Shown one piece after another: positions 38,268 through 51,815 of a stretch of DNA of 64,000 bases. The stretch comes from Sulfurimonas autotrophica DSM 16294 (GTDB taxonomy: Bacteria; Campylobacterota; Campylobacteria; Campylobacterales; Sulfurimonadaceae), in NCBI RefSeq assembly GCF_000147355.1, contig NC_014506.1:1922001-1986000 (forward strand). Direction: 5' to 3'. The notes under the pieces were generated by a model, which was given only the letters and a program-made list of their open reading frames with translations, had not been told where the DNA came from and made no database searches. Within the stretch, counting starts at the first letter, position 1; every line of letters begins with the position of its first letter. The position numbers were made by a program, and so were the translations under genes.

Positions 38268-38281
38268 TTGATTTATATCAT
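38268..38281 (+). promoter_or_regulatory. FNR/NNR-type box with class II -10 upstream of the second nosL
   Basis: TTGAT-TTAT-ATCAT, one mismatch from the FNR consensus TTGATNNNNATCAA. The -10 hexamer TAGAAT is at 38304-38309; its centre is exactly 32 bp from the box centre, the spacing of a class II (-41.5) activated promoter. The nosL start is at 38331. Confidence 0.72.
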
Positions 38282-38330
38282 GAAGGAAATAAACATATTA
38301 AGATAGAATAAACGGAAAAAGGTTCTCTTT

Positions 38331-38780
38331 ATGAAATATTTTCTTTTGGTTTTTGGCTTGACTTTTAGCTTGTTAAATTTTACAGGATGTGATAAAAAAG
38401 GTGTTAATACACAACCGGCTGAAGTCCACTGGGACAGAGACATGTGTACTCGTTGTGCCATGGTTGTAAGTGATAGAGACAATACGACGCAAGTCATCAA
38501 TCCTGCAAACGGAAAAGTTTATATGTTTGACGATATAGGATGTGCGATACTTTGGTTTCATGATGAAGAAATTCCCTGGAAAGATAAAGCCGTCATCTGG
38601 ATAACAGATGCAAAAACGGGAAAATGGATAGATGCAAGAAAAGCATATTATGATACGGAAAATATAACTCCTATGGCTTATGGTTTTTCAGCACACAAAT
38701 TAAAAGAAGATATTACAAAAGGTCAAGAAATTATAGACTTTAATGAAGTTGTTAAACGTGTTAAGGAAATTGGTAGGTAG
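38331..38780 (+). CDS. nosL: NosL-family copper-binding lipoprotein (second nosL copy)
   Basis: A 149-residue lipoprotein: signal with lipobox-like NFTGC (Cys20), then the NosL Cu(I) site segment DMCTRCAMVVSDR and the C-terminal region FDDIGCAILWF, VIWITDAKTGKWIDARKAYY, MAYGFSAH. NosL delivers copper to NosZ. It is divergent from the other nos genes and converges with nosD2, which it overlaps by 20 bases. Has its own FNR-type promoter. Confidence 0.9.
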   Translation: MKYFLLVFGLTFSLLNFTGCDKKGVNTQPAEVHWDRDMCTRCAMVVSDRDNTTQVINPANGKVYMFDDIGCAILWFHDEEIPWKDKAVIWITDAKTGKWIDARKAYYDTENITPMAYGFSAHKLKEDITKGQEIIDFNEVVKRVKEIGR

Positions 38781-39969
38781 GTTTTTTGTCTTCCATGATG
38801 AGATTTGGTTCGATAAATGGAGCCAAATGCGATAAGAAGTTAAGCATACTCATAATAGGACTGGCATAAAAGAACTTCACTTTATGATTATAGTGCCAAA
38901 GTTGATCCGCATACTGATATACATCATAAGGAATATCGCCTATACCATCATTATTTTCATCAAAACCTGCATATCTGTCCCAATAATTATATTCTACTAC
39001 ATTGGAAGATTCAAAATTTTTACCGGCATCTTTAACGACATCATCTATATTTGAAAATATTTTATTATTTGTAATCGTATTATCTTTAATGGAAGCATGA
39101 AAATGCAAAGCTTCTCCATTATAAGAAATTTCATTACCTATGATGTAACGTTTCATGCCCTTTGCTTTTTCCTGCCCCTGAATATAAAGGGCTTTGGCAT
39201 TATAACTGACTCTATTATTTTTAAAAATAAAATTTGCAACGCTTCCTATCATGACACCAATACCTGCCGCACCATTAGAACTTAGTATCTCGTTGCCAAT
39301 TACTTGAGTATTTTGCGCTCCCATGAACATCATAGCAACTGAATTGTATTTGTAAATATTATTAATAAAACGATTGTTGTGGCTCAAAGAGAGATGTGTT
39401 GCAAATCTGTTGCCTTGAAATTGATTTTTCTTAAAAAGATTATGGTGAGAATAATTCAATGTAACATCCCTCACATTTTCAATGATATTAAACTCTATCA
39501 CATTATGGTTTGCATAGTAAAGTTTTAAAGCATTTGCCCGTAACGGTAAATCATTTTTTTTCGTCGTAATATAGTTATGAGAAATCATAGAATTATTTAC
39601 CCTATCCATATCTATGCCATAAAGAACTTCAGAAATATTGCAGTCACGTATCTCACAATTTTGTACCTGTTTCATGGATATAGCAGCATCAATACTCTGC
39701 ATATTCATGCCGCTGTTTTGAATGATAAGATGTTTAAGTATAACCTCAGAACTTCTAACAGAAATAACATTCTTCACGCCATCACCTTTGATAATAACAT
39801 GCTCGCCAATACCTATGATTGTAAGTGGTTTATCAATATGAATATTGCCCTTATAAAGAGCATTTTGAAGTTTTAAAGTTGCATAAGGAGGCGCTACATC
39901 TATCGCATCCTGGAGTGCATTAGCAAAAACAAGTGCAGAAGAGAATAGCACTAAAAAGAAAAATTTCAT
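38761..39969 (-). CDS. nosD: NosD-like periplasmic parallel beta-helix protein (second copy)
   Basis: A 402-residue exported protein: signal peptide (1-17), then right-handed beta-helix turns (repeated N-x-I/V-x-x-N patterns such as NHNVIEFNIIEN, NNRFINNIYKYNSVAMMF) and a C-terminal DRYAGFDENNDGIGDIPYDVYQYADQLWHYN typical of NosD. NosD helps load CuZ into NosZ together with NosFY. A close paralogue lies at 45287-46519, and this copy is the last gene of the nos operon, after a PAS gene. Confidence 0.9.
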   Translation of the reverse strand: MKFFFLVLFSSALVFANALQDAIDVAPPYATLKLQNALYKGNIHIDKPLTIIGIGEHVIIKGDGVKNVISVRSSEVILKHLIIQNSGMNMQSIDAAISMKQVQNCEIRDCNISEVLYGIDMDRVNNSMISHNYITTKKNDLPLRANALKLYYANHNVIEFNIIENVRDVTLNYSHHNLFKKNQFQGNRFATHLSLSHNNRFINNIYKYNSVAMMFMGAQNTQVIGNEILSSNGAAGIGVMIGSVANFIFKNNRVSYNAKALYIQGQEKAKGMKRYIIGNEISYNGEALHFHASIKDNTITNNKIFSNIDDVVKDAGKNFESSNVVEYNYWDRYAGFDENNDGIGDIPYDVYQYADQLWHYNHKVKFFYASPIMSMLNFLSHLAPFIEPNLIMEDKKPTYQFP

Positions 39970-39990
39970 ATTATCTGATTCCTAAAAATC

Positions 39991-40515
39991 TTAATAAAAT
40001 CTGTGAATTTCTTCCATTAAATTGGCAAAAGTGACATCATCACCTTTTTCTTTAAGATATGCGTTGAGATATTTTTCACTTGCATCCACACCATCGCTTT
40101 TTTCAACGGTTAAAAGCTCTTTATACAACTCTGTAATAATCTCAATAACATGCTTAGAAATTGTTTTTCTTGACGCATGATAACCGATAATCTCTCCGTT
40201 ATCTGTATTTTTACGAATTTCAAATTCTGTAAAAATCCAGTAGTATCTTCCATCTTTAGCCAGATTTTTTACAACAGCATTGATATTTTTACCCTGTTTG
40301 AGATTTTCCCATAAAAGTTTAAACACTACTTTTGGCATATCAGGATAGCGGACTATACTGTGAGGCTGTCCAATGAGTTCTTCTTCACTGTAACCTGATA
40401 CTTCACAAAAATAATCATTTACATAGGTAATTTTACCCTTGGCATCTGTCTCACTGACTATATATCGTTTTGGATCTAATATTATCTCTTCATCAATTGG
40501 TGTTGGCTTTGTCAT
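39991..40515 (-). CDS. PAS-domain protein (Aer-like sensor without output domain)
   Basis: A 174-residue cytoplasmic protein made of one PAS domain (residues 15-125: IVSETDAKGKITYVNDYFCEVSGYSEEELIGQPHSIVRYPDMP, and the GRYYWIFTEFEIR strand) and a helical C-terminus. PAS domains of this type bind FAD in Aer aerotaxis receptors. No methyl-accepting, kinase or DNA-binding domain follows. It overlaps nosL by one base and so is co-expressed with nos genes; it could sense redox or oxygen for the N2O pathway. Confidence 0.75.
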   Translation of the reverse strand: MTKPTPIDEEIILDPKRYIVSETDAKGKITYVNDYFCEVSGYSEEELIGQPHSIVRYPDMPKVVFKLLWENLKQGKNINAVVKNLAKDGRYYWIFTEFEIRKNTDNGEIIGYHASRKTISKHVIEIITELYKELLTVEKSDGVDASEKYLNAYLKEKGDDVTFANLMEEIHRFY

Positions 40516-40994
40516 TATATTGCTCCATTTAAAAGTTTTATTAATCCATAATTCACTTCTTTAAATCCTAATACCCTTGATCCATGATGTTTTTTTGAAA
40601 ACTCCGTCGCATCCTTATATGAGTTAAAAGGAACTAAATCATCTCCACCCGGTGAAGTAATATCACTTCCGTAAACATAAAAAGCACCTTTTGCATTTAT
40701 GGCTTTTAAAGTTTTAAAATCCGTTACATAAATTGTTTTAAAATCACTTTCACTTTTCAAATGAAACAGGCTATACCATCCGGCTGGATGAAAATAAAAC
40801 TCAAACATTCCTTTTGGTGAAGAAAAAAGCACCCTCTTCCCATCTGCAAGAATAATTTCAGATACCCAACTTGGATTCTTATATACCTTCAGATGTCTTA
40901 CCATTCCTGTAGAATTTCTATCAAAATTTATCTCATGTGAAAACACTAAACTCGAAAACACCAATAACGCGACAAATATCTTACCCATAGCCAA
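40515..40994 (-). CDS. nosL: NosL-domain exported protein
   Basis: A 159-residue protein with signal peptide (1-20) and a NosL-type domain: FSSPKGMFEFYFHPAGW, TIYVTDFKTLKAINAKGAFYVYGSDITSPGGDDLVPFNSYKDATEF. It lacks the CxxC-like N-terminal cysteines of the lipoprotein NosL at 38331, so the two may divide labour. Position after nosY matches nosL of the Wolinella nos cluster. Confidence 0.8.
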   Translation of the reverse strand: MAMGKIFVALLVFSSLVFSHEINFDRNSTGMVRHLKVYKNPSWVSEIILADGKRVLFSSPKGMFEFYFHPAGWYSLFHLKSESDFKTIYVTDFKTLKAINAKGAFYVYGSDITSPGGDDLVPFNSYKDATEFSKKHHGSRVLGFKEVNYGLIKLLNGAI

Positions 40995-40998
40995 TCCT

Positions 40999-41826
40999 TT
41001 ATACTAAATCTTTTTTCTCAAATATTTTATAACCTAAAAATGCAAACACTAATCCCAAAATAAGAGGATATCCAATAGAAACTAAAACAAATACTGACTG
41101 ACTCATAGAGTCTAATATATAAAATGCAACCGGTCCCATAACTGTAAGCTGCGGATCGAACAATGAAATAGCTGCAACACGAAATATTTCCATAGGGTTT
41201 ATTAGACTAATAAAAATGATTAAACCTGAACTCATACGTTCTTGCATCATAAGTGAAATAAGCGCTATATCAATAAATGCAAGTAAAAATATCCATATAA
41301 AAAATGATAATCCAAGTGCCACTTCAGAAGATTTCACAAATGAAGATATAAAAAATGCTATACCTAAAAAGGCACTACTCATTGCAAAAAGTAATCCTGT
41401 ATAGAGAAAAAAGATATTCCAAGGAATAGCAGCACCTTTAAATGCTCCGTAAATAATTGCTATAACCATAGCAAAAAATACCGGTAGAAAAACAGTTATA
41501 AATCTGCCAATTACTTTTCCCCAATAGTACTGTTTTAAAGATATCGGAAAAGAGAGCATATATTCTAGTACATTGCTGTCCCTGTCACCGGAGATGGAAC
41601 GTACAGTCGTAATCAGAATGAAAATCGGTAAAATGACTATAGTTATTTGAATATACATCAACAAAAGACGGCTTAAACCACTAAAACCCATCACTTGAGA
41701 CTCTGTAACACCGGCTATAAAAAAGAGCGCAATTAAACCGCCAAACACAAGAGAATAAACAACAAACCATTTTGCCCGCAGTGATTCTTTTAAATCAAGA
41801 TATGCTATTAAATATAGATTTTTCAT
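40999..41826 (-). CDS. nosY: NosY-type ABC transporter permease
   Basis: A 275-residue integral membrane protein with six helices and the ABC-2 motif SISGDRDSNVLEYMLSFPISLKQYYWGKVIGRF. With NosF and NosD it supplies sulfur or copper species for the CuZ centre. Zero-gap junction with nosF. Confidence 0.92.
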   Translation of the reverse strand: MKNLYLIAYLDLKESLRAKWFVVYSLVFGGLIALFFIAGVTESQVMGFSGLSRLLLMYIQITIVILPIFILITTVRSISGDRDSNVLEYMLSFPISLKQYYWGKVIGRFITVFLPVFFAMVIAIIYGAFKGAAIPWNIFFLYTGLLFAMSSAFLGIAFFISSFVKSSEVALGLSFFIWIFLLAFIDIALISLMMQERMSSGLIIFISLINPMEIFRVAAISLFDPQLTVMGPVAFYILDSMSQSVFVLVSIGYPLILGLVFAFLGYKIFEKKDLV

Positions 41827-42465
41827 TTAAAACCTCTCATCTGATACTATTTTTCCCAAATCCATATAAATCTGTCTATTTACCAAATCCCTAACTTCTT
41901 CTAGTCGGTGCGTTACAAACAGCAGTACTTTATCTTCTTCGTTTTGCTTAAGCAACCTGTAAAAATCATCTCTTGCTTTTGGATCAAGATTTGCAGTAGG
42001 CTCATCATAGATAATAATATCACTTTTTTTCGCTAAAGAGATGGCTATAAGAAGTTTTTGCTTCATTCCGCCACTCAACTTAAAAAATGATTTACTCAAG
42101 TTTGAAGTAATATCAAGTTTCATCTCATTTGCATAATACTTAATAAGCTCTCTATCTACTTTAGCACTGACCCCAATATATTCAATTAATTCAGCAATAC
42201 TCAAGCGAATTGGAGGCGGAAGCTGCGGCACAAAACTAATGTGATCTAAAACATCAAGACGATCTTTTATGGGATTTTGCCCATTAATGAGCACTTCACC
42301 CTCATTTGGATGGTAATATCCCATAATAGAACGGACAAGTGTAGTTTTTCCTGCACCGTTTGCTCCCATTAAAGCAATAGACTCATTTTTTTTGAATTCA
42401 CAGTTAATGCTGTCTAGCGATACATTTGAACCAAATTTCTTTGTTAAATTAGATATTTTTATCAT
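41827..42465 (-). CDS. nosF: NosF-type ABC transporter ATPase
   Basis: A 212-residue ATPase: Walker A GANGAGKTTLVRSIMG, Q-loop FVPQLPPP, signature LSGGMKQKLL, Walker B IIIYDEPTANLDP, H-loop THR. Shorter than Pseudomonas NosF (about 300). Partner of NosY and NosD. Confidence 0.92.
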   Translation of the reverse strand: MIKISNLTKKFGSNVSLDSINCEFKKNESIALMGANGAGKTTLVRSIMGYYHPNEGEVLINGQNPIKDRLDVLDHISFVPQLPPPIRLSIAELIEYIGVSAKVDRELIKYYANEMKLDITSNLSKSFFKLSGGMKQKLLIAISLAKKSDIIIYDEPTANLDPKARDDFYRLLKQNEEDKVLLFVTHRLEEVRDLVNRQIYMDLGKIVSDERF

Positions 42466-42467
42466 AA

Positions 42468-43373
42468 TTACACCAAACTTTTTAATCTAAAATCAAAATT
42501 AAGAGCATCTTCATGACAAACATCTATGCATCTTCCGCAAAGCGTACAATCTGCACCGGTAATATACTCATGGGTGATGCCCTCTTCTTCTCTTTGTTTG
42601 TCATATTTAGCTTTTGTAATCTCTAGAACCTGATTTTCAAAACAGACATCAGAACAGACCATACAGTGATCACAGTTATCATTCCACTCAATACGTAAAG
42701 CAGAAACTTTACCGATCATACCATAAGTAGCACCAATAGGACAGATATAAGTACACCATGCACGTCGAGCAAAGAAAACTTCAAAAGCAAATACAATGAG
42801 TACCCAAACTAGTGATAAACTCCATCCATATGCAATGGCGCGACTCAAAATTCCAACAACACTAAAAGTTTCAAAGACCAAATAACCGCTTGTAAAAGCT
42901 AAAATCAAAAAAATTGCCCAGAAAAAGTATTTTATACGATGATCAAATTTACGATCTTTAATAATCTTTTTTGCAACTAAAGTATTATGCCATTTTTCAC
43001 CTATCTCACTCAGTATTCCATAAGGGCATACCCAGGCACAGTAACTTCTACCTCCAACAAGCAGATAAAAGATAGTAATAGTACTTACACCAATAATAAT
43101 ATTAATATGTAGATGATGCTCTGCCATAAACATCTCTAATGTTGTAAAAGGATCAATAAGGTGAAATCCTAAAAATCTTGAACCGTTGAGCGTTCCTTCA
43201 AGTGTTTGAATATCAATAGCAAAAGAGAGAAAAAAGAGAAGATGCACAGAGATGACAACAATCCATCTTTTGGCTCTAATACTCAGTTTTTTCTTTCCAT
43301 CTTTTGTTGTACTGAAAAATGTTGATAAAAACGATGTTCTTTTTATGGTCTCTCTACTATTATACTTATCCAT
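42468..43373 (-). CDS. nosH: NosH/NapH-type polyferredoxin membrane protein
   Basis: A 301-residue protein with four membrane helices, two CxxxCP motifs in the loops (CAWVCPYG, CTYICPIG), and a C-terminal 2[4Fe-4S] domain (CDHCMVCSDVC, CTLCGRCIDVC). Like NapH it takes electrons from menaquinol, and with NosG and the two cytochromes passes them to NosZ. Confidence 0.92.
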   Translation of the reverse strand: MDKYNSRETIKRTSFLSTFFSTTKDGKKKLSIRAKRWIVVISVHLLFFLSFAIDIQTLEGTLNGSRFLGFHLIDPFTTLEMFMAEHHLHINIIIGVSTITIFYLLVGGRSYCAWVCPYGILSEIGEKWHNTLVAKKIIKDRKFDHRIKYFFWAIFLILAFTSGYLVFETFSVVGILSRAIAYGWSLSLVWVLIVFAFEVFFARRAWCTYICPIGATYGMIGKVSALRIEWNDNCDHCMVCSDVCFENQVLEITKAKYDKQREEEGITHEYITGADCTLCGRCIDVCHEDALNFDFRLKSLV

Positions 43374-43385
43374 TTTTCTACCCTG

Positions 43386-43892
43386 TTATTTAGAATTTTT
43401 AAGTGCCTCAGCGCGTGCTGGAAATTCCCCTATCTCTTTTGCCAATCTTTTCAAATCATCTTGAGACAAGTGAAGTAACAAACCTCGCATAATCATATTC
43501 TCTTTTCTACCGGATTTAAAATCATCCAGTTTTTTATAAAGTTCATCAGCACTTTGTCCAAAAAGTTTAGGACCCATGAGTTTTTTACCATACTGCATAC
43601 CGCTGCCATCAACACCATGGCAAGAAGAACATTTACTTTTATACTCATCACTTACTTTAAAGCTTCCAATATTTCCGGCTTTATCTCTAAGTGCCGTTAA
43701 TGCTTCATTCTCTTTTTCTCTATCACTTTTTGCTTTTGGCTCACTGTCTATTTTTGTCGTAGCGACTCTATTACCGATATCTTCAGTAATCCTACCAGCT
43801 TCTCCACCATTATAAGCACCTCCATTTGAGGCAACCCATGCCATTAAACCAATTGTTAGTAGTATAAAGAATCCTGCTATTATATTTCTCAT
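43386..43892 (-). CDS. nosC2: Membrane-anchored monoheme cytochrome c (NosC2)
   Basis: A 168-residue protein with an uncleaved-looking N-terminal helix (3-20) and one c-type heme motif CSSCHG; a Met in IMRG may be the sixth ligand. Electron carrier to NosZ. Adjacent to nosC1 with zero gap. Confidence 0.88.
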   Translation of the reverse strand: MRNIIAGFFILLTIGLMAWVASNGGAYNGGEAGRITEDIGNRVATTKIDSEPKAKSDREKENEALTALRDKAGNIGSFKVSDEYKSKCSSCHGVDGSGMQYGKKLMGPKLFGQSADELYKKLDDFKSGRKENMIMRGLLLHLSQDDLKRLAKEIGEFPARAEALKNSK

Positions 43893-44522
43893 CTATTTAT
43901 TCCTTATCTTTTGAATTTGAACATTAAAGTTATATATATCTTCTGCTATTGAGCGTATCTCTTTATCGCTCATATTATGAATCAAGTCATTCATGAATAC
44001 ATTTTTTTTCTTTCCACTTTTAAAAGCCATAATCTTATTATAGATATAATCAGCATCACGGCCAAGCAGTGAGGGCCCGAGGACACCATTGGCATAATCA
44101 TCATGACATGCAGAACATTTCAATCTAAATGTAGGGCTTAGCTGTTTTGCAAGTAAAGAAACCTGAACTCTTTCATAGGGACTTCTGATATGGGTATAGG
44201 CATCGAGCTTCGTTCGCGGTCGAACACGGACAGAAGCATCTTCATTTGCAGGTTGTGCATTTTGATCATACTCACTTTTTTCACCATAATCATAATAAAA
44301 AGAATTTTTATTCCCAGATTTGCCCTTATTGATTTCATCTGTATTTGATTTTACTTTTACAGCATACTCATTTTTATTTGCTACAACTTCAATTTTTGGA
44401 GTAGCTGCCGTAGCTGTGACACTATCTATCTGTTTCTTTTCATCAGACTCTTTTTTATCTCCGCAAGCAGAAAAACTAATGATTATTAAAAAAGTCGATG
44501 CTAATAATATACTCTTATTCAT
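43893..44522 (-). CDS. nosC1: Lipoprotein monoheme cytochrome c (NosC1)
   Basis: A 209-residue protein with lipobox FSAC (Cys20), a low-complexity charged linker, then a cytochrome c domain with CSACHD at about 144 and KKNVFMND as the likely Met ligand segment. Overlaps nosG by 4 bases. Confidence 0.88.
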   Translation of the reverse strand: MNKSILLASTFLIIISFSACGDKKESDEKKQIDSVTATAATPKIEVVANKNEYAVKVKSNTDEINKGKSGNKNSFYYDYGEKSEYDQNAQPANEDASVRVRPRTKLDAYTHIRSPYERVQVSLLAKQLSPTFRLKCSACHDDYANGVLGPSLLGRDADYIYNKIMAFKSGKKKNVFMNDLIHNMSDKEIRSIAEDIYNFNVQIQKIRNK

Positions 44523-45274
44523 GATATTCCTTGACTTTTATTTCCATAGTACTCTTCATAAGTCATTCTGGGTTTTACTACTATTGACGGTGTTGACGTC
44601 GGACAGACATCCTGACATGCACCGCATCCTATACATCCCTCATAAATCTCCGGACGTTTTCCACCTTTGGCATCAGGTACCATGGCAATTGCACTTAGGG
44701 GATTTGGTACTGGGCACATATCAGCACATAAATTGCATGCTTCTCCTTCTCGGCCCATAAACTTTTTAATAAGTTCTTCCTCTTCAGGTGTTTCATTTCT
44801 TACAGATTTTGTAAAGGCTATCATCTTATTATCATAACCTTCTGGAATTGGTGTACGACTAATACCTAAACAGGTATCCGGAAACTCTAAAACAGCAATT
44901 CCCATTCTGATATCTTCTGCTTTTTCTGTCTTATGATCGAGCGCCCCACTTGGACATGCCAAAACACACGGTACTGCATTACAAGCATAACACGCTCGTA
45001 TATTAGGGTCTATAAAAGGTGTTCCTTCTCCGGTCCCTTTATTAATATCGTTGAGTTTTATTGAATGATAGGGACAGACCTGCAAACACTGACCGCATTT
45101 AATGCAAAGAGCTAAAAAATCTTTTTCAGGAACTGCTCCCGGCGGTCGAAGTTTGTTTTCTTTCCCTTCAAGATAAGGACTAAAAACAATACCTCCCCCC
45201 ATCACAAGACCCAATAAACCTAATGTAGAATATTTAACAAAATCTCTTCTGTCTGTTTGTACTTTTTTTGCCAT
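44519..45274 (-). CDS. nosG: NosG/NapG-type periplasmic polyferredoxin
   Basis: A 251-residue protein with a Tat signal (DRRDFVKYSTLG at residues 8-19) and four 4Fe-4S motifs: CIKCGQCLQVCP, CYACNAVPCVLACP, CNLCADMCP and CIGCGACQDVCP. It links the membrane polyferredoxin NosH to periplasmic cytochromes. Confidence 0.93.
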   Translation of the reverse strand: MAKKVQTDRRDFVKYSTLGLLGLVMGGGIVFSPYLEGKENKLRPPGAVPEKDFLALCIKCGQCLQVCPYHSIKLNDINKGTGEGTPFIDPNIRACYACNAVPCVLACPSGALDHKTEKAEDIRMGIAVLEFPDTCLGISRTPIPEGYDNKMIAFTKSVRNETPEEEELIKKFMGREGEACNLCADMCPVPNPLSAIAMVPDAKGGKRPEIYEGCIGCGACQDVCPTSTPSIVVKPRMTYEEYYGNKSQGIS

Positions 45275-45286
45275 GATTATCCTTTA

Positions 45287-46519
45287 TTAAATTGCTTTTC
45301 GCATTTTTGGTTTTTTATCTTCCATTAAAAAGAGTGGTTTTGAAAATGGAGCAAGTTTTGCTAAAAAATTTAGTAGCGATATAACCGGTGAACCGTAGAA
45401 AAATTTCACATTATTGTTATAGATCCAAAGCTGATCGGCATATCTGTAGACTTTATGCGGTGTATCACCTATTCCGTCACCATTATTATCAAAACCCGTA
45501 TAATTATCCCAATAATTGCCTTCAATTTCATTCTCTTGCGTTCTATCCCGCTTACTGTCATTGACTATATCTTCAATATTTCCAATAATAACGTTATTTT
45601 TAATAATATTATTTATACTTAAAGAGTGAAAATGGATAGCTTCTGCGTTATACAGGATTTTGTTCCCTTCTATAATATTATGCGTATCTGGTTCAAAAGG
45701 TGATCTATCAATATAAAATCCCTGTGCACAGTAGATGACAGTATTGTTTTTCAGGGTAAAATTGGAAGCATCTTTAAGTCCTATACCCATTCCTGTCGCA
45801 CCTAAAGAACTTTTAACAATATTTCCTGTTGCTATAGAGTCTTGTGAATACATAAAAAATATACCTACTGAATTGTTTTCATATCTATTGTTTTTAATAA
45901 AATTTTTTCCTGCATACATAAAGTGCAGAGAATATCTGTTATCTTTTCCAAAATTATTTTTAATAGTATTACCATGAGAATACCAGACAACCATATCACG
46001 TGATTTTATTAAAGAGTTGCCCTTTATGATATTGTTGTTTGAGTACCACAAACGTAAACCGTCTCCACGCAAGCCTAAAGGAAGTTTTTTGGAAGTAATT
46101 TGATTATTGCTTATAATTGAATTGTTAACCATCTGTAAATCTATACCAAAAAGACAATTTTTAATAATGCAGTTACTAACTTCGCACTGTTTTATTTTTT
46201 TCATTTTACTCTTGGCCATAGAGATCGCACCATCAAGTTTCTCATGTCTGCTGCCACTGTTAATAATAGTCAAATTTTTCAGCGTCACATATGAACTCTG
46301 CACTTTTATGACGATACCTTTGTTTTGACCATCAATGATAACGCCTTTTGCCTGTCCTATAATAGAAAGTGGTTTATTGATATGGATGTTGCCTTTATAG
46401 ACTCCGGCAGGAAGTTTTAAAATTGAACCGGTAGGTGCACCGTCTATTGCATCTTGCAATACATTGGCACTCAAATGGCTAATAATAACAATAGCAACAA
46501 TCAATAAACCTTTTAACAT
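45287..46519 (-). CDS. nosD: NosD periplasmic copper-processing beta-helix protein (first copy)
   Basis: A 410-residue exported protein (signal 1-18) with the same beta-helix architecture as the copy at 38761 (NNSIISNNQIT, NNIIKGNSLIKS, HNIIEGNKILYNAEAIHFH) and the C-terminal DNYTGFDNNGDGIGDTPHKVYRYADQLW. It lies at the canonical position between nosB and nosG. Confidence 0.93.
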   Translation of the reverse strand: MLKGLLIVAIVIISHLSANVLQDAIDGAPTGSILKLPAGVYKGNIHINKPLSIIGQAKGVIIDGQNKGIVIKVQSSYVTLKNLTIINSGSRHEKLDGAISMAKSKMKKIKQCEVSNCIIKNCLFGIDLQMVNNSIISNNQITSKKLPLGLRGDGLRLWYSNNNIIKGNSLIKSRDMVVWYSHGNTIKNNFGKDNRYSLHFMYAGKNFIKNNRYENNSVGIFFMYSQDSIATGNIVKSSLGATGMGIGLKDASNFTLKNNTVIYCAQGFYIDRSPFEPDTHNIIEGNKILYNAEAIHFHSLSINNIIKNNVIIGNIEDIVNDSKRDRTQENEIEGNYWDNYTGFDNNGDGIGDTPHKVYRYADQLWIYNNNVKFFYGSPVISLLNFLAKLAPFSKPLFLMEDKKPKMRKAI

Positions 46520-46533
46520 TTGTACAACCTGAC

Positions 46534-47322
46534 TTATTTTTTATTTTCCATCTCTTTAAGAGCTTTTTGTTTTGCAAAAAACGCCAAAAGGCTGAAAAGA
46601 CTTATCAGAAGTATCATATAAAAACCTATTGTCGGGTAGGAGTGTGTTGTAAATTGAGCAATTTTTCCATCTCCAAAAACAGTCGGCATAAAGGGTTTAA
46701 TTTTAAAAGCTCCCCAATCATGTAAATTATGTCCAAACCAATAGAGCCAATAGGAATAATCGCCAATAAAGATAAGCGGCAATGCTATAGGAATAAGCAT
46801 AATATAACTAAAAATTTTATTATTATAAATCATAAAAAATATCATTCCTAAAGAAAGTGCTAAAAGAGCATATGGTCCGATTGCTCTTTCAAAATGTCCA
46901 CCTCTCCACATTGGGTCCATTCCAACATAGTGATTGATTGTATCCATTTCATGTACCTCTCCACTATATCCGTCAAAATGAAAATAAACAGGAATACCTT
47001 GTGGAAAAGCTTTTTTTGGATAATTTGGTGCTTCTAAGGAAACTGCCCATATTGGTAGCGATGCCGGTCCAATTTCTGATTCACTTTCAATCATCTTTTC
47101 TAAATTGTTATGAGCACTTTTAGGAGTTGCGACACTTTTATATTTACCTTTATTGTAAAGATTCCAGACAGATATACTAAGAGGAGATATTTCATTAATC
47201 TTACCTACATCTATCTTGTTAAGCGTTCCATGAAATGTTATCATTGGAAATGTAAAAGAAAAAGTTAAAATCAGTAAAGCTATAAAAGTAAAAATTCTAG
47301 CTTTTATTAAACTTGGGTGCAT
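46534..47322 (-). CDS. nosB: NosB-type membrane protein of clade II N2O reductase clusters
   Basis: A 262-residue integral membrane protein with about six helices, an N-terminal helix with FSFTFPMITFHGTL, and a periplasmic loop containing HFDGYSGEVHEMDTINHYVGMDPM, the conserved part of NosB. The function is not established, but it always travels with clade II nosZ. First gene of the nosB-to-nosD2 operon; its own FNR-type box and TATAAT lie at 47355-47396. Confidence 0.9.
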   Translation of the reverse strand: MHPSLIKARIFTFIALLILTFSFTFPMITFHGTLNKIDVGKINEISPLSISVWNLYNKGKYKSVATPKSAHNNLEKMIESESEIGPASLPIWAVSLEAPNYPKKAFPQGIPVYFHFDGYSGEVHEMDTINHYVGMDPMWRGGHFERAIGPYALLALSLGMIFFMIYNNKIFSYIMLIPIALPLIFIGDYSYWLYWFGHNLHDWGAFKIKPFMPTVFGDGKIAQFTTHSYPTIGFYMILLISLFSLLAFFAKQKALKEMENKK

Positions 47323-47382
47323 AATAATTCCTTGTTTATAAATTAAATTACATTATTATACTTAGATATAATTAATATAAAT

Positions 47383-47396
47383 TTAACTTAAATCAA
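47383..47396 (-). promoter_or_regulatory. FNR/NNR-type box with class II -10 for nosB
   Basis: TTAAC-TTAA-ATCAA. On the minus strand the -10 TATAAT is at 47355-47360, box centre to -10 centre exactly 32 bp. An independent promoter for nosB after the nosZ terminator hairpin. Confidence 0.7.
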
Positions 47397-47432
47397 CAAA
47401 ACTATGAAAATATCGAAAGACAGGGAAAAGAG

Positions 47433-47460
47433 GAGGTGTGGATGAAGATATCCACACCTC
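47433..47460 (-). terminator. Strong hairpin after nosZ
   Basis: GAGGTGTGGAT and ATCCACACCTC pair over 11 bp with a 6-base loop. On the minus strand it is followed by CCTCTTTTCC, a weak T-run, so it may end most nosZ transcripts, or protect their 3' ends while letting some run into nosB. Confidence 0.75.
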
Positions 47461-47489
47461 AATTTAAAAGTTGTAAAAATATCTATTTT

Positions 47490-50093
47490 TTAAAATAGAT
47501 TTGCATTTTCGTCTACCCATTTAAAGTATTCGACAATGTTATTTACTTCTTCTTTTGTCATATGTTGATTAGGCATTCTAAGATTAAAGTAATTAATCAT
47601 ACCTTCTACATATGGATCATGATATTTACTTTTTGGATTAAGAATAAAGTTTCTTACCCATTTTTCAGCATTTTCATGTCTTTGAAGTACACCTGTTAAG
47701 TCCGGACCAGATGAAACTTTACCAATAACGTGACATCCGCCACATCCACCTTCACCAAATGCTCTTTCACCAGCAGCAGCAGCAGCAGATTGTTTTGTTG
47801 CAACTTTTTTCACAAGTAGGTTTTTCGCTCTGATTCCAACATCAGCAGTTTTAACCATATATTGCCAAATCATATTTTCAAACAGAACAGCTTTTTCCAA
47901 ATCACCGGCTTTTACAGCTTTATCTGAAAGTTTTTTCTGAGCCGGAATTTTTCCATACTGATCAAGTGCATCCACAACAAGTGCTTTTACAGTTGGATAT
48001 TTCTCATAATGATTTGCTTTTAAGAATTTAACAACTGATTGAATAACAGCATCCGTAGCAGTGTTTACTGCAACAGTTTTATCATATTCAGCTTTTAACT
48101 CTGCTTTAGACATAGTTTTCATTTTAAGTTTTTGAGCACTAACATATTTTTTGTTAGGATCTTTAACCATCAAATAACCCATCATTTCTAAGTGAAGTGC
48201 TGAACAAAACTCTGTACAGTAGTAAGGAAAAACTCCCTCTAAATCAGCTTTAAATTTAACAGATGCAGTTTTACCTGGCTCTAATGAAGCATGAACATCG
48301 TAGTTATCAACTGTAAATCCGTGTGTTTCATCTTCTGCACGTTCTAAATTTGTTAAATAGAATGTTACAATATCACCTTTATTTACAGTAACTCTTTCAG
48401 GATTGATGTGAGATCTAACTAATGTCGCATATACTGTTACATTATGACCTTTTCTTACAACTCTCTCTTGACCAGCTAATGTTTTACCTTTAGAAATTTT
48501 TCCGGTTCTTGAGTTTGTACCCATTTTATAACGAACTTCCGGATGTAATTTACTCATACGAATAGCAACAGCTTGATGTGGTTCACCTAAAGGAATTGCC
48601 ATATCATAAAGAAGATCCATTTTTTTACCACTAATATCTATTAATTGGTGATTTTGTGGGTGAAGAGGTCCTACCGGATCAAATCTATCAATAGCAAGTT
48701 TATTTAAAGAAATAATATACTTCCCTTGAGGATCAGCAGATTTACCTTCCATACCACATAAATGACCAACGTTATAATGAACATTTACTTTGTCTAAAAC
48801 TTTTAAATGTTTATAATCCCATTTTACAATTTGTGAGTCAACATATAAAGATGTATAAATTTCACCATCTTTCCAATGTTTACCATACTGGTTATGTAGT
48901 GGCCCAAGACCTAATTCAACTTGACCGTGTAAAGAATCTTTCATACTTAAGATAGGAATCCCATAAGGATCTTTACCCGCATATTTATGATCTTTAATCA
49001 ACTTTTGAATCTTGCTCCATTTATACACGGAAGCATGCGTATCAAGTTTACCACAAACAACAATGTACTCACCATCAGGAGAAACATCAACACCGTGAGG
49101 TGATTTTGGTTCTGGAATTAAGAAAAGTGCATTGTTAGCAACAGCAACACTCATTGGAATAACTTTAATCCCATTAATTACTTTGTAATTCTTTTTATTT
49201 TTAGTAAGAGTTGCTAATTTTTTCCAGTTATATACATGTAAAAAGTCAGTGTCATTTCTTGAACAACCTGCTTCAAACGGAGGCATACCTACTTCAATAC
49301 CACCTGTATACATTTCAGAGTTAAATGAGTTTGTAAAGCCCCAACCATTAGAAGCACCTTTACCGGCATCACTCAAATCCTGCATATATGGAGGTAATTC
49401 AAGAACAAAAGATTTCTTTTGATTAATACGCCCAATTTTATCATTGAACTTCCAAAAAGTAATACCCCCGCGGTATGTCTCTTTATATTCTTCAATTGGA
49501 TGATAGTTATTATCAAAAGGTGCAGCATATTGAGAAGCTTCTAAAATATACTCAGAATTTGGTGTAAAGAAAGCTCCCCCATGGTCTGATTTAAAAACAG
49601 GGTTGACAACTATCTGCTTTGTTTCAAAATCATTTAAATCTAAAATAGCAATACGAGGATTAGCTTTATCGTTAATTGCCAGCCATTTTCCATCATATAC
49701 ACCATTTGTTTCTGAAATAGCCGGGTGGTGAGTATCTCCCCAGTTAATTTCACGTCCACGGATATTTCCCTCTCGTAAAACTTTTTTACTCTCTTCATCG
49801 TAACCATACCCTTGCCATGGTTCGGGAGTAAAAACACCGATATACTTTAAGATTTTCATACTTGGAACACCATAGACCATTATCTGCCCAGACTGTCCAC
49901 CAGAACTGAAAATCATGAATTCATCTCTGCCACCGCTTGGTGTATAAGTTTTTGCAGCATGAATTACGTCATTTTCTGTAAGTCCCCTTGCTTTCATCAC
50001 TTTTTCAAGCTCTCCACCATTAGCTGATGCCATAGTAGCAGCTAAAGAAGTACCTAAAAGAAGTGAAGTCAGCCTACTTATATTTGTAGCCAT
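47490..50093 (-). CDS. nosZ: Nitrous oxide reductase, clade II, with C-terminal cytochrome c domain
   Basis: An 867-residue NosZ. Sec-type signal (SLLLGTSLAATMASA), not Tat, as in clade II. CuZ histidines include WGDTHHPAISETN and SPHGVDVSPDGEY; the CuA domain has YYCTEFCSALHLEMMGY. After it comes a monoheme cytochrome c domain with CGGCHVIG and MPNQHM, found only in Campylobacterota-type cNosZ. It reduces N2O to N2 in the periplasm. I start at the ATG at 50093, with AAGGAG 7 bases upstream; ATGs further up encode residues within the leader. Own FNR-type promoter. Confidence 0.96.
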   Translation of the reverse strand: MATNISRLTSLLLGTSLAATMASANGGELEKVMKARGLTENDVIHAAKTYTPSGGRDEFMIFSSGGQSGQIMVYGVPSMKILKYIGVFTPEPWQGYGYDEESKKVLREGNIRGREINWGDTHHPAISETNGVYDGKWLAINDKANPRIAILDLNDFETKQIVVNPVFKSDHGGAFFTPNSEYILEASQYAAPFDNNYHPIEEYKETYRGGITFWKFNDKIGRINQKKSFVLELPPYMQDLSDAGKGASNGWGFTNSFNSEMYTGGIEVGMPPFEAGCSRNDTDFLHVYNWKKLATLTKNKKNYKVINGIKVIPMSVAVANNALFLIPEPKSPHGVDVSPDGEYIVVCGKLDTHASVYKWSKIQKLIKDHKYAGKDPYGIPILSMKDSLHGQVELGLGPLHNQYGKHWKDGEIYTSLYVDSQIVKWDYKHLKVLDKVNVHYNVGHLCGMEGKSADPQGKYIISLNKLAIDRFDPVGPLHPQNHQLIDISGKKMDLLYDMAIPLGEPHQAVAIRMSKLHPEVRYKMGTNSRTGKISKGKTLAGQERVVRKGHNVTVYATLVRSHINPERVTVNKGDIVTFYLTNLERAEDETHGFTVDNYDVHASLEPGKTASVKFKADLEGVFPYYCTEFCSALHLEMMGYLMVKDPNKKYVSAQKLKMKTMSKAELKAEYDKTVAVNTATDAVIQSVVKFLKANHYEKYPTVKALVVDALDQYGKIPAQKKLSDKAVKAGDLEKAVLFENMIWQYMVKTADVGIRAKNLLVKKVATKQSAAAAAGERAFGEGGCGGCHVIGKVSSGPDLTGVLQRHENAEKWVRNFILNPKSKYHDPYVEGMINYFNLRMPNQHMTKEEVNNIVEYFKWVDENANLF

Positions 50094-50166
50094 TTTATTC
50101 TCCTTCGTTTTCATTTTGAGAAATAACCCCAAATGATAGAAGTATAATAATATATATTCAAGACTA

Positions 50167-50190
50167 ATAATTTGACTTAGGTCAAATTAT
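50167..50190 (-). promoter_or_regulatory. FNR/NNR-type palindrome with class II -10 for nosZ
   Basis: ATAATTTGAC-TTAG-GTCAAATTAT, a perfect 10-bp inverted repeat containing TTGAC-N4-GTCAA. On the minus strand TATTAT (50144-50149) lies with its centre 32 bp from the box centre. The nosZ start is at 50093. Confidence 0.85.
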
Positions 50191-50200
50191 AAAACTAATT

Positions 50201-51154
50201 TTATTTTTTAAAGTTATCTAAATTTATTTTCAAAGATCGAAGTCTCTGCAATGATGCACTGAGTTCATCTAGTGCTTCTATTAGAATATCTTCTTTTTTC
50301 ACCAGTTCTTTATCAAGTCTATTTCCTGCATCCATTGTTTCGATAAGTTCCAGTAAATCTTCAATATTTTTTTCAATACATTCTAATGAATTTGAAGCAT
50401 TTTTTATGGATTCGCTTGAATAATCAATAGATTTATCTATCTTTTCAACAAAAAAATTAAAATCATCCACCGCCTGAGTAACATCGGCTATGTTTGCATT
50501 TTTCTCAATCGGTTTTATACCGATCACCGTTGATTTTTGTACAATTTTTTTAGATGTGTTCAAAAACTTTTGAATAAATGTAATTAAGTCTTTTAGTTGA
50601 GAAAAAAGATACATAAGTAAAAGTATTAAAATAACAAAGAGAGTAATCTGTATTGTTTTATTTTTATTTTTCACTGTGTCAACATACTTCTTATGCATTT
50701 CTATTAGCTTATTAAACTCTCCGACAAGCTGTAAATTTTTATTATATATATCTTTTACCAGCCTTTGTATTACAAGATTTGTATAGCCATTTTGCACTCT
50801 GTAAGCATCTCTGAATTTTTGCACAAGCAGATAAAAATCATTCCATAAATAAATTATTTTTTTTGATTCCTGTTTTATATCTTGAGAAAATATTTCATCT
50901 AAAACTTCATCTTTATGATTCATATTATTTACAAAAGCTTTTACGGATGCATCAAGCTGTTTTACCGAAGCATCTTTATTTCTATATATAAAAAAAATGT
51001 TTTTAGCAATCTCCTGAGTAAAGGCTTTTTGTTCATTAATAATTTTTAAAAGCTTGAGATTTGCTTCATTTTGTGTAGAAATATGTTTGGAATACAAGGC
51101 TAAGACGACAGAGAGTATAAAAATCAATGCACCCACAAATTTTATTTTAGTCAT
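50201..51154 (-). CDS. PilJ/NarX-sensor-like membrane protein lacking an output domain
   Basis: A 317-residue protein: N-terminal membrane helix, a periplasmic four-helix-bundle region (about 30-165, like type IV pili methyl-accepting and NarX sensor domains: KAFTQEIAKNIFFIYRNKD...), a second helix (about 171-188, LFVILILLLMYLF) and a cytoplasmic coiled coil. No methyl-accepting hairpin, kinase or DNA-binding part follows. The ATG at 51154 has AAGGA 8 bases upstream and overlaps the Crp/Fnr gene by 8 bases, so the two are translationally coupled. It may sense an N-oxide for the regulator; this is inference. Confidence 0.72.
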   Translation of the reverse strand: MTKIKFVGALIFILSVVLALYSKHISTQNEANLKLLKIINEQKAFTQEIAKNIFFIYRNKDASVKQLDASVKAFVNNMNHKDEVLDEIFSQDIKQESKKIIYLWNDFYLLVQKFRDAYRVQNGYTNLVIQRLVKDIYNKNLQLVGEFNKLIEMHKKYVDTVKNKNKTIQITLFVILILLLMYLFSQLKDLITFIQKFLNTSKKIVQKSTVIGIKPIEKNANIADVTQAVDDFNFFVEKIDKSIDYSSESIKNASNSLECIEKNIEDLLELIETMDAGNRLDKELVKKEDILIEALDELSASLQRLRSLKINLDNFKK

Positions 51155-51815
51155 CTGTTTTATCCTTGTAAATTTCTTGCAAAGCTGCTGCATCGATTAC
51201 TGTAACTCTGCCATGTATTATATCAATAATACCATTTCGTTTTAATCTATTGAGTACGCGAGAAAGTGTTGCCGGCTGAATATGAAGCATCAAAGAGATG
51301 TCATGGCGTTTTAGTTTGTTAAACATTTCAAGATCATCATGCAACATCATGCTTACCTTTGAAACAGCATCAAAAATAAATTCTCTATTCACTAAAGACT
51401 GCAACTGTAATGACCTTTTTATAATCTCTTTTGTCAGGTTTTTACATAATATATTTTTGTTTAAAAAATTTTCTTTAAATTTTTTATAGTTTATACTTAA
51501 AATCTGTGAATCATCTATAAGTTGGATATTGGAAAAAGAATGTAAATTATCAGAATCAATATTTGAAACTTCTGAAATCATAGAATTGCCATATATATAA
51601 TAAAGAAAGATTTCATTGTCGTGTTTGTCTATTTTATACGCTTTTGCCAAACCATCTATTAAAAAAAACAATTCATTCGTATTAATATTTTCATAATGGA
51701 GAATATAGTCTTTTTTATAGTGATGTACTAAAGATATTGATACTAATTCATCTAACTCTTCATCATTTAAAGAAGAAAAAAAAGTTTGAGATTTAATTAT
51801 ATCTTTTATAGACAA
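51147..51815 (-). CDS. Crp/Fnr-family transcriptional regulator (NssA/Nnr-like)
   Basis: A 222-residue regulator with an N-terminal cyclic-nucleotide-type beta-roll (KDYILHYENINTNELFFLIDGLAKAYK), a dimer helix, and a C-terminal HTH (DISLMLHIQPATLSRVLNRLKRNGII). It lacks the cysteine cluster of oxygen-sensing FNR, so it is more like NNR/DNR or the Wolinella Nss regulators of N-oxide respiration. FNR-type boxes before nosZ, nosB and nosL2 are plausible targets. It precedes the sensor-like gene. Confidence 0.88.
   Translation of the reverse strand: MSIKDIIKSQTFFSSLNDEELDELVSISLVHHYKKDYILHYENINTNELFFLIDGLAKAYKIDKHDNEIFLYYIYGNSMISEVSNIDSDNLHSFSNIQLIDDSQILSINYKKFKENFLNKNILCKNLTKEIIKRSLQLQSLVNREFIFDAVSKVSMMLHDDLEMFNKLKRHDISLMLHIQPATLSRVLNRLKRNGIIDIIHGRVTVIDAAALQEIYKDKTDD

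Follow-up and report, generated by a model that had tools for sequence, protein, structure and literature searches.

Do the nitrous oxide reduction (nos) genes of Sulfurimonas autotrophica DSM 16294 answer to a single Crp/Fnr-type regulator or to more than one? The question is raised by a stretch of 64,000 nucleotides (hereafter the window; positions 1922001-1986000 of the single-contig genome of 2,153,198 bp), in which nosZ, nosB and a gene that we call nosL2 are each preceded by a Crp/Fnr-type box and a -10-like hexamer. An earlier reading of this DNA, made from the sequence alone, had treated the three sites as a nos regulon whose best candidate activator was the product of the Crp/Fnr-superfamily gene at 51147, which we call Crp A. 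Based on sequence, spacing and co-occurrence across genomes, we find that the sites look like part of a denitrification regulon rather than a nos-only one, and we think that they are probably class II Crp/Fnr-type promoters of a genome-wide regulon in which control is split, with Crp A acting at nosZ and another Crp/Fnr protein acting at nosB and nosL2. Nitrous oxide (N2O) is a strong greenhouse gas for which organisms with clade II nosZ, Sulfurimonas among them, act as sinks, and little is known of how these sinks are controlled. The outcome of this analysis is a set of predicted start sites, two candidate regulators, each linked to a different operator, and a list of genes that may be under such control.

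Promoter geometry at nosZ, nosB and nosL2

The boxes, -10 hexamers, strands and 32-bp geometry of the sequence-only reading were all confirmed, and the distance from the centre of the box to the centre of the hexamer is 32 bp at the three sites alike. The nosZ gene (47490-50093, minus strand) encodes a Sec-dependent (clade II) nitrous oxide reductase (TIGR04246, 871.5 bits), and we took its start from the sequence as the ATG behind AAGGAG rather than an upstream TTG at 50132. Its operator, on the same strand, is a perfect 10-bp inverted repeat around TTTGAC-CTAA-GTCAAA at 50167-50190, where the arms ATAATTTGAC/GTCAAATTAT enclose the core box at 50172-50185, and the -10-like hexamer TATTAT is at 50144-50149 (minus strand). 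The nosB homologue (46534-47322, minus strand) has no Pfam or NCBIfam match and is named from the earlier reading and from its place behind nosZ; its promoter consists of the box TTGATTTAAGTTAA at 47383-47396 and the -10 hexamer TATAAT at 47355-47360, both on the minus strand. The third gene, nosL2 (38331-38780, plus strand), encodes a NosL-like lipoprotein (PF05573, 23.3 bits, slightly below the cut-off of 24) and is preceded on the plus strand by the box TTGATTTATATCAT at 38268-38281 and the -10-like hexamer TAGAAT at 38304-38309. Compared to a palindromic box of the TTGAY-N4-RTCAA type, nosZ matches at 10/10 positions and nosB and nosL2 at 9/10 each. The choice of hexamer is ambiguous at nosZ alone, where 5/6 matches to TATAAT are also found at 27, 29 and 35 bp.

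At class II promoters of E. coli, the regulator binds at a site centred near -41.5, which is 32 bp upstream of the -10 element. By this model, a dimeric regulator would occupy the palindrome centred near -41.5 and stand in for a -35 element, and RNA polymerase would use the -10 hexamer 32 bp downstream of the box centre. Transcription is predicted to start at about 50137 for nosZ, 47348 for nosB and 38316 for nosL2.

We next asked how often this arrangement occurs in the window and in the rest of the genome. On its own, the box shows no excess in the window, with 11 sites at up to one mismatch versus a shuffle mean of 17.05 (at least 11 sites in 97/100 shuffles). When the box (at least 9/10) is required together with TANNAT at 32 bp, exactly three of the 22 oriented boxes in the window remain, and these are nosZ, nosB and nosL2; the same search in 60 Markov resamples finds 0.22 such sites on average and never more than 1. 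The whole genome contains 32 exact TTGAYN4RTCAA boxes (64 orientations), and nine of the 64 oriented boxes have TANNAT at 32 bp, whereas the other distances between 15 and 60 average 0.87 such boxes and never exceed 3. Allowing one mismatch over box and hexamer yields 27 genome matches versus 9 in the reversed control, and the degenerate box TTRAYN4RTYAA alone has 81 genome sites versus 64 for the reversed pattern.

The same geometry is found in relatives. We fetched 80 nosZ relatives and identified nosB homologues in 67/81 nosZ loci, the window included. A perfect 10/10 box is present in 57/77 upstream regions of nosZ (window included; 0.2 expected in shuffles) and in 36/65 upstream regions of nosB (0.0 expected), where the shuffles preserve base composition only. 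At the lower threshold of at least 9/10, 47/65 nosB regions have a box, and none is present in 17/77 nosZ and 18/65 nosB regions. To profile the spacing, we removed first the regions without a box (below 9/10) and then near-identical regions, which reduced nosZ from 77 to 60 to 52 regions and nosB from 65 to 47 to 40. In these non-redundant sets, a -10-like hexamer is found at exactly 32 bp in 39/52 nosZ regions (10/52 at 33 bp; the highest other distances are 27 bp, with 15/52, and 35 bp, with 12/52) and in 35/40 nosB regions (highest other count, 6). The class II-type geometry predicted from the sequence is therefore upheld as unique in the window, enriched genome-wide and marked by a 32-bp peak in relatives. 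For nosL2, box and hexamer at 32 bp are kept in 4/13 relatives with the gene on the opposite strand, which suggests that the nosL2 site is a younger or less stable part of the system. This count took up to two NosL2 matches per locus and excluded L024 (contig end) and L041, where the box is poor and, although it has a hexamer at 32 bp, is 160 bases away from the gene.

The nosZ operator and Crp A

The nosZ site is set apart by its longer form, and we propose that this dedicated operator, TTTGAC-N4-GTCAAA, would be read by the nearby Crp A. Crp A (51147-51815, minus strand; PF13545 and PF00027) has the recognition helix QPATLSR and is the candidate nosZ regulator. It had been described as next to nosZ; it is indeed nearby, but the gene of a 317-amino-acid protein (50201-51154, minus strand) lies in between, its start overlapping the end of the Crp A gene. 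The genome encodes four Crp-type helix-turn-helix proteins above the cut-off, and only Crp A and a second protein, Crp B, have an FNR-like T-L-S-R helix. Neither has the N-terminal cysteine cluster of FNR proper: Crp A, for which the sequence-only reading had already denied the FNR cysteines, has one cysteine, in the middle of the protein, and Crp B has two, neither of them N-terminal.

Across genomes, the operator tracks Crp A. In S. autotrophica, exact TTTGACN4GTCAAA is found at nosZ only, and one mismatch gives 19 sites versus 7 in the reversed control. Among nosZ boxes, this form accounts for 21/25 boxes in loci with Crp A and for 3/3 where only the gene of the 317-amino-acid partner is visible, compared to 3/24 boxes in loci without Crp A nearby and 3/8 where Crp A could not be judged; the presence of Crp A was scored within the fetched locus, 11 loci were not judgeable, and loci counted as lacking Crp A may hold it elsewhere. 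Extending the search to 151 genomes of the family, we found 60 exact operators with a correctly positioned TANNAT, distributed over 56 genomes, and none in the reversed control. The exact operator is within 2.5 kb of 40/43 Crp A genes (at least 56% identity) versus 1/37 homologues of 43-55% identity. This comparison used the 60 box sites, the Crp matches of at least 43% identity (minus the G113 fragment) and 18 more distant ones; because only part of the Crp matches entered, the nearness of boxes to distant Crps is incompletely counted.

The pairing also holds at the level of whole genomes. Among 56 genomes with nosZ, 42 have both Crp A and a promoter with the exact operator, 13 have neither, one has Crp A only and none has the operator only (Fisher 7e-12, kinship ignored). 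The count covers 61 nosZ copies, including the partial copy of G138 and excluding the G006 fragments and the second G045 fragment, and accepts the exact operator only. The sole genome with Crp A only, G007, appears to be the same as locus L061, whose operator differs by one base. The operator is still present in two genomes, G031 and G123, where separate contigs carry Crp A and nosZ, and the exact TTTGAC operator is absent from the second full-length nosZ copies of G064, G071, G073 and G093. Based on these genomic data, Crp A is a strong candidate for the regulator of the nosZ promoter.

The operator was also seen at other places. G030 has a second TTTGAC operator (G030:C1:1779877) some 520 bases in front of its Crp A gene, a position that would suit autoregulation. 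In L168 (genus g5) and L174-L176 (genus g14), the extended operator and -10 geometry precede anaerobic ribonucleotide reductase-like genes, named from reading the sequence.

nosB, nosL2, Crp B and a probable denitrification regulon

The boxes of nosB and nosL2 correspond to an ordinary Dnr/Fnr-type box, TTGAT-N4-ATCAA, with one deviation each, and would more likely be read by another Crp/Fnr protein, for which Crp B is the best candidate in this genome. Crp B (genome positions 802758-803402; L139:5759-6403) has the recognition helix PETLSR, the E-x-x-S-R type that is expected for TTGA boxes, and its gene stops 16 bases short of a box-and-hexamer promoter at 803418, about 3 kb from a heme d1 gene. 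The nosB promoter is present in 21/23 genomes with a Crp B orthologue and in 12/24 without (Fisher 0.003, kinship ignored), where an orthologue means at least 52% identity, a cut-off that we chose within a continuous list. Our counts of nosB promoters leave out 11/58 stretches without nosB or the nosZ end. This is moderate evidence for Crp B as the better, though not exclusive, candidate for nosB and nosL2 in this genome. The idea of Crp B as the sole nosB regulator was dropped, as the association is moderate only.

The same promoter pattern extends well beyond the nos genes. Of the nine exact box-plus-hexamer sites in the genome, one is inside a gene, one (234036) has no downstream gene, and the remaining seven lie between genes, upstream of genes for respiration or associated with it. 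In these seven, the distance from the first base of the box to a start codon is 46-114 bases (in some, the choice of start is uncertain). These seven sites are found before nosZ; before a napA-like molybdopterin oxidoreductase gene; before a 426-amino-acid protein without a family match, beyond the nap genes; before a 108-amino-acid gene followed by a COX1-family gene and a cytochrome cd1 (NirS-type) gene; before a 204-amino-acid gene followed by another COX1-family gene; before a protein that matches both siroheme decarboxylase subunits (heme d1 synthesis); and, directly behind Crp B, before a 117-amino-acid gene and a 411-amino-acid gene. Stop-to-stop frames had placed the nosZ box in an open frame, and we count it as intergenic because it precedes the start codon. 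A regulon confined to nos, as first proposed, is therefore rejected, given that the pattern also precedes nap, nir/nor-type and heme d1 genes. Judged by promoter pattern, the sites form a regulon of nitrogen-oxide respiration (nap, nir/nor-type, heme d1 and nos genes), a trait of DNR- and Nss-type regulators. For instance, a denitrification regulon has been described for DNR of betaproteobacteria (PMC1274295) and a comparable one for the Nss proteins of Wolinella (PMC6682613; the papers named here and below are cited from partial texts). The ninth site, at 234036-234049, is just past the end of a radical SAM activase-like gene, has no gene downstream in its direction, and is possibly due to chance or to a small RNA.

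These results bear directly on the simplest account of the locus, in which Crp A alone would control all three nos promoters and the nosZ site would be the strongest version of one motif. The identical spacing at the three sites suits this account, as do the location of the Crp A gene within the nos region and the presence of nosZ in all 43 searched genomes with Crp A. However, the nosB promoter is about as frequent without Crp A (7/10 genomes) as with it (26/37; hand count), which argues that Crp A is not a general nos activator, the extended form is present in 0/43 nosB boxes, and the identical geometry recurs at nap and nir/nor-type promoters. We therefore consider control by Crp A alone unlikely, as is one regulator of any kind for all three sites, and a single operator class was rejected on the 0/43 count. 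Of the earlier proposal that the gene at 51147 encodes the nos activator, the part that concerns nosZ stands as a strong candidacy and the part that covers all three promoters does not. Among the genomes with a Glu-type Crp A (defined below), six were readable, and the nosB promoter is missing in four (G071, G109, G133 and G148) and present in two (G105 and G143).

Proposed split control, its rivals and related systems

A number of observations weigh against a division of labor between Crp A at nosZ and another regulator at nosB and nosL2. On a nosZ tree made by a quick method and with one mismatch allowed, the operator is found in 30/30 loci with Crp A and also in 4/36 without Crp A nearby. 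The two traits each change six times on this tree. Supported branches offer four independent pairs (on average 3.5 agree and 0 oppose), for a sign test p of 0.125-0.25, so that the test of Crp A against the operator does not reach significance with so few independent events; 66/77 rows were labelled, and loci with only the partner gene, L028 and L031 were labelled as having Crp A. One half-site reads TTTGCC in three Crp A loci (L033, L035 and L045). In g14, a different genus of the family, the same operator precedes napA-like genes (so named from the sequence) in four genomes (L170, L171, L172 and L177), in three of which a Crp with no more than 32-34% identity is encoded about 1 kb away, and the operator is therefore not exclusive to Crp A. 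On the side of nosB, Crp B is not required, as half of the genomes without it have the promoter. The recognition helix of Crp A raises a further difficulty. Rodionov and colleagues found that loss of Glu181 covaries with a changed half-site (PMC1274295), and Crp A has Ala at this position of E. coli CRP, which would suggest a changed half-site, yet its operator keeps TTGAC. We aligned this position on the T-L-S-R motif and numbered it as in PMC1274295. The helix is P-A-T-L-S-R in 23/30 orthologues and P-E-T-L-S-R in 7/30, with the same TTGAC operator in both, and Ser is found in L025 and L045. Either Crp A is an exception to the Glu181 rule or another protein reads the nosZ site; the Ala was dropped as a ground for excluding Crp A from nosZ because the Glu-bearing orthologues have the same operator. 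Two further points come from Nitrosophilus labii, where no exact nosZ box was reported and the authors inferred negative regulation of nosZ, and where some candidate sites overlap predicted starts (PMC11539149). Lastly, S. autotrophica has all denitrification genes in its genome (PMC4584964) yet reportedly cannot reduce nitrate (PMC3035374), and may therefore make little use of the regulon.

Some of these points would be accommodated if one other regulator of the Dnr/Nss type, Crp B, controlled all sites including nosZ, and the co-occurrence of Crp A with the operator reflected shared inheritance. Crp B retains the E-x-x-S-R helix, Crp A mostly has Ala instead of Glu, and the tree holds few independent evolutionary events. 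This account has to explain why the exact operator accompanies Crp A in 42/43 genomes versus 0/13 without it, even when the two are on separate contigs, and why second copies of nosZ in these genomes lack that form, and we judge it no better placed than control by Crp A alone. Less probable still is that the boxes bind a repressor, or that the regulator represses nosZ. The 32 bp between box centre and -10 correspond to where activators bind at class II promoters of E. coli, and the poor nosZ -10 of many relatives (TACTAT, TAATAT and similar) suits activation. The case for repression comes from a negative correlation and a path analysis in N. labii (PMC11539149), and these data are correlative and from another genus. 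Chance, by which TANNAT would be expected near any box in AT-rich intergenic DNA, is hardly credible even though the window shows no excess of boxes as such and several hexamers would fit at nosZ, as the 32-bp peak rises sharply above other distances in window, genome and relatives, and it was rejected for nosZ and nosB by the peaks in relatives and genome. For nosL2 taken by itself, the support against chance is thinner (4/13 relatives).

Similar boxes and regulators are known from other bacteria. In N. labii, the same box is found at essentially the same position at napA, norE and nosB: the first base of TTGA-N6-TCAA is 48 bases before the predicted nosB and norE starts and 49 before that of napA (PMC11539149), which by our conversion puts the centre near -41.5. 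Class II-like spacing at nosB, nor and nap is thus already published, and what is new here is that the conserved geometry is quantified, with a genome-wide list of sites and a separate nosZ operator tied to Crp A. N. labii differs in that its two Crp/Fnr genes are upstream of nap and nor, and the available part of the report describes no Crp beside nosZ (PMC11539149). The Wolinella succinogenes proteins NssA, NssB and NssC share the consensus TTGA-N6-TCAA as cited in PMC11539149, a likeness of box and not of compared proteins; a separate extended nosZ operator goes unmentioned in the available part of that paper's account of Nss. In betaproteobacteria, DNR has the box CTTGATnnnnATCAAG before nirS, nirK, norB and nosZ (PMC1274295), and Crp B shares its E-T-L-S-R type helix, although DNR belongs to another bacterial group than Sulfurimonas. 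The motif wyTTGACnnnnGTCAArw of deltaproteobacterial HcpR is close to the nosZ operator, a likeness of motif only, but HcpR controls hcp and frdX whereas the operator here is at nosZ (PMC1274295). In a final example, NssR of Campylobacter jejuni is, like Crp A, a Campylobacterota Crp/Fnr protein without Glu at position 181; NssR reads TTAACnnnnGTTAA, whereas the operator linked to Crp A keeps TTGAC despite the Ala (PMC1274295). Among the papers listed by literature searches with few subscription journals covered, none is by title or abstract start a study of nosZ regulators in Sulfurimonas, and nothing appeared on a separate nosZ operator tied to Crp A.

The 317-amino-acid protein encoded between Crp A and nosZ may add to this picture, and its gene is paired with that of Crp A in relatives. 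No Pfam family was above the cut-off for the first member, and weak PilJ matches were found in 2/24 members. The structure model is all helical (mean predicted local distance difference test score, pLDDT, 78; predicted template modelling score, pTM, 0.46), and the best PDB fold matches are a chemoreceptor ligand domain and NarQ, all weak (every E-value at least 0.17). We read it as a predicted membrane protein that combines a helical bundle with a coiled coil and lacks an output domain; a sensor role would be a guess from the model. A tentative extension, which we hold as doubtful but worth stating, is that Sulfurimonas has a dedicated nosZ module composed of Crp A, this NarQ/chemoreceptor-like membrane partner without an output domain and a private extended operator. 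On this view, the partner would detect nitrate, N2O or copper state as a signal in the periplasm and in turn gate Crp A, which would be an exception to the Glu181 covariation. If true, nosZ would have its own control layer above the general denitrification regulon.

The nos region of the window also contains two NosD-like genes. The one at 45287-46519 is a TIGR04247 match, and the one at 38761-39969, named from a reading of the sequence only, forms the far end of the region and overlaps the end of nosL2 on the opposite strand.

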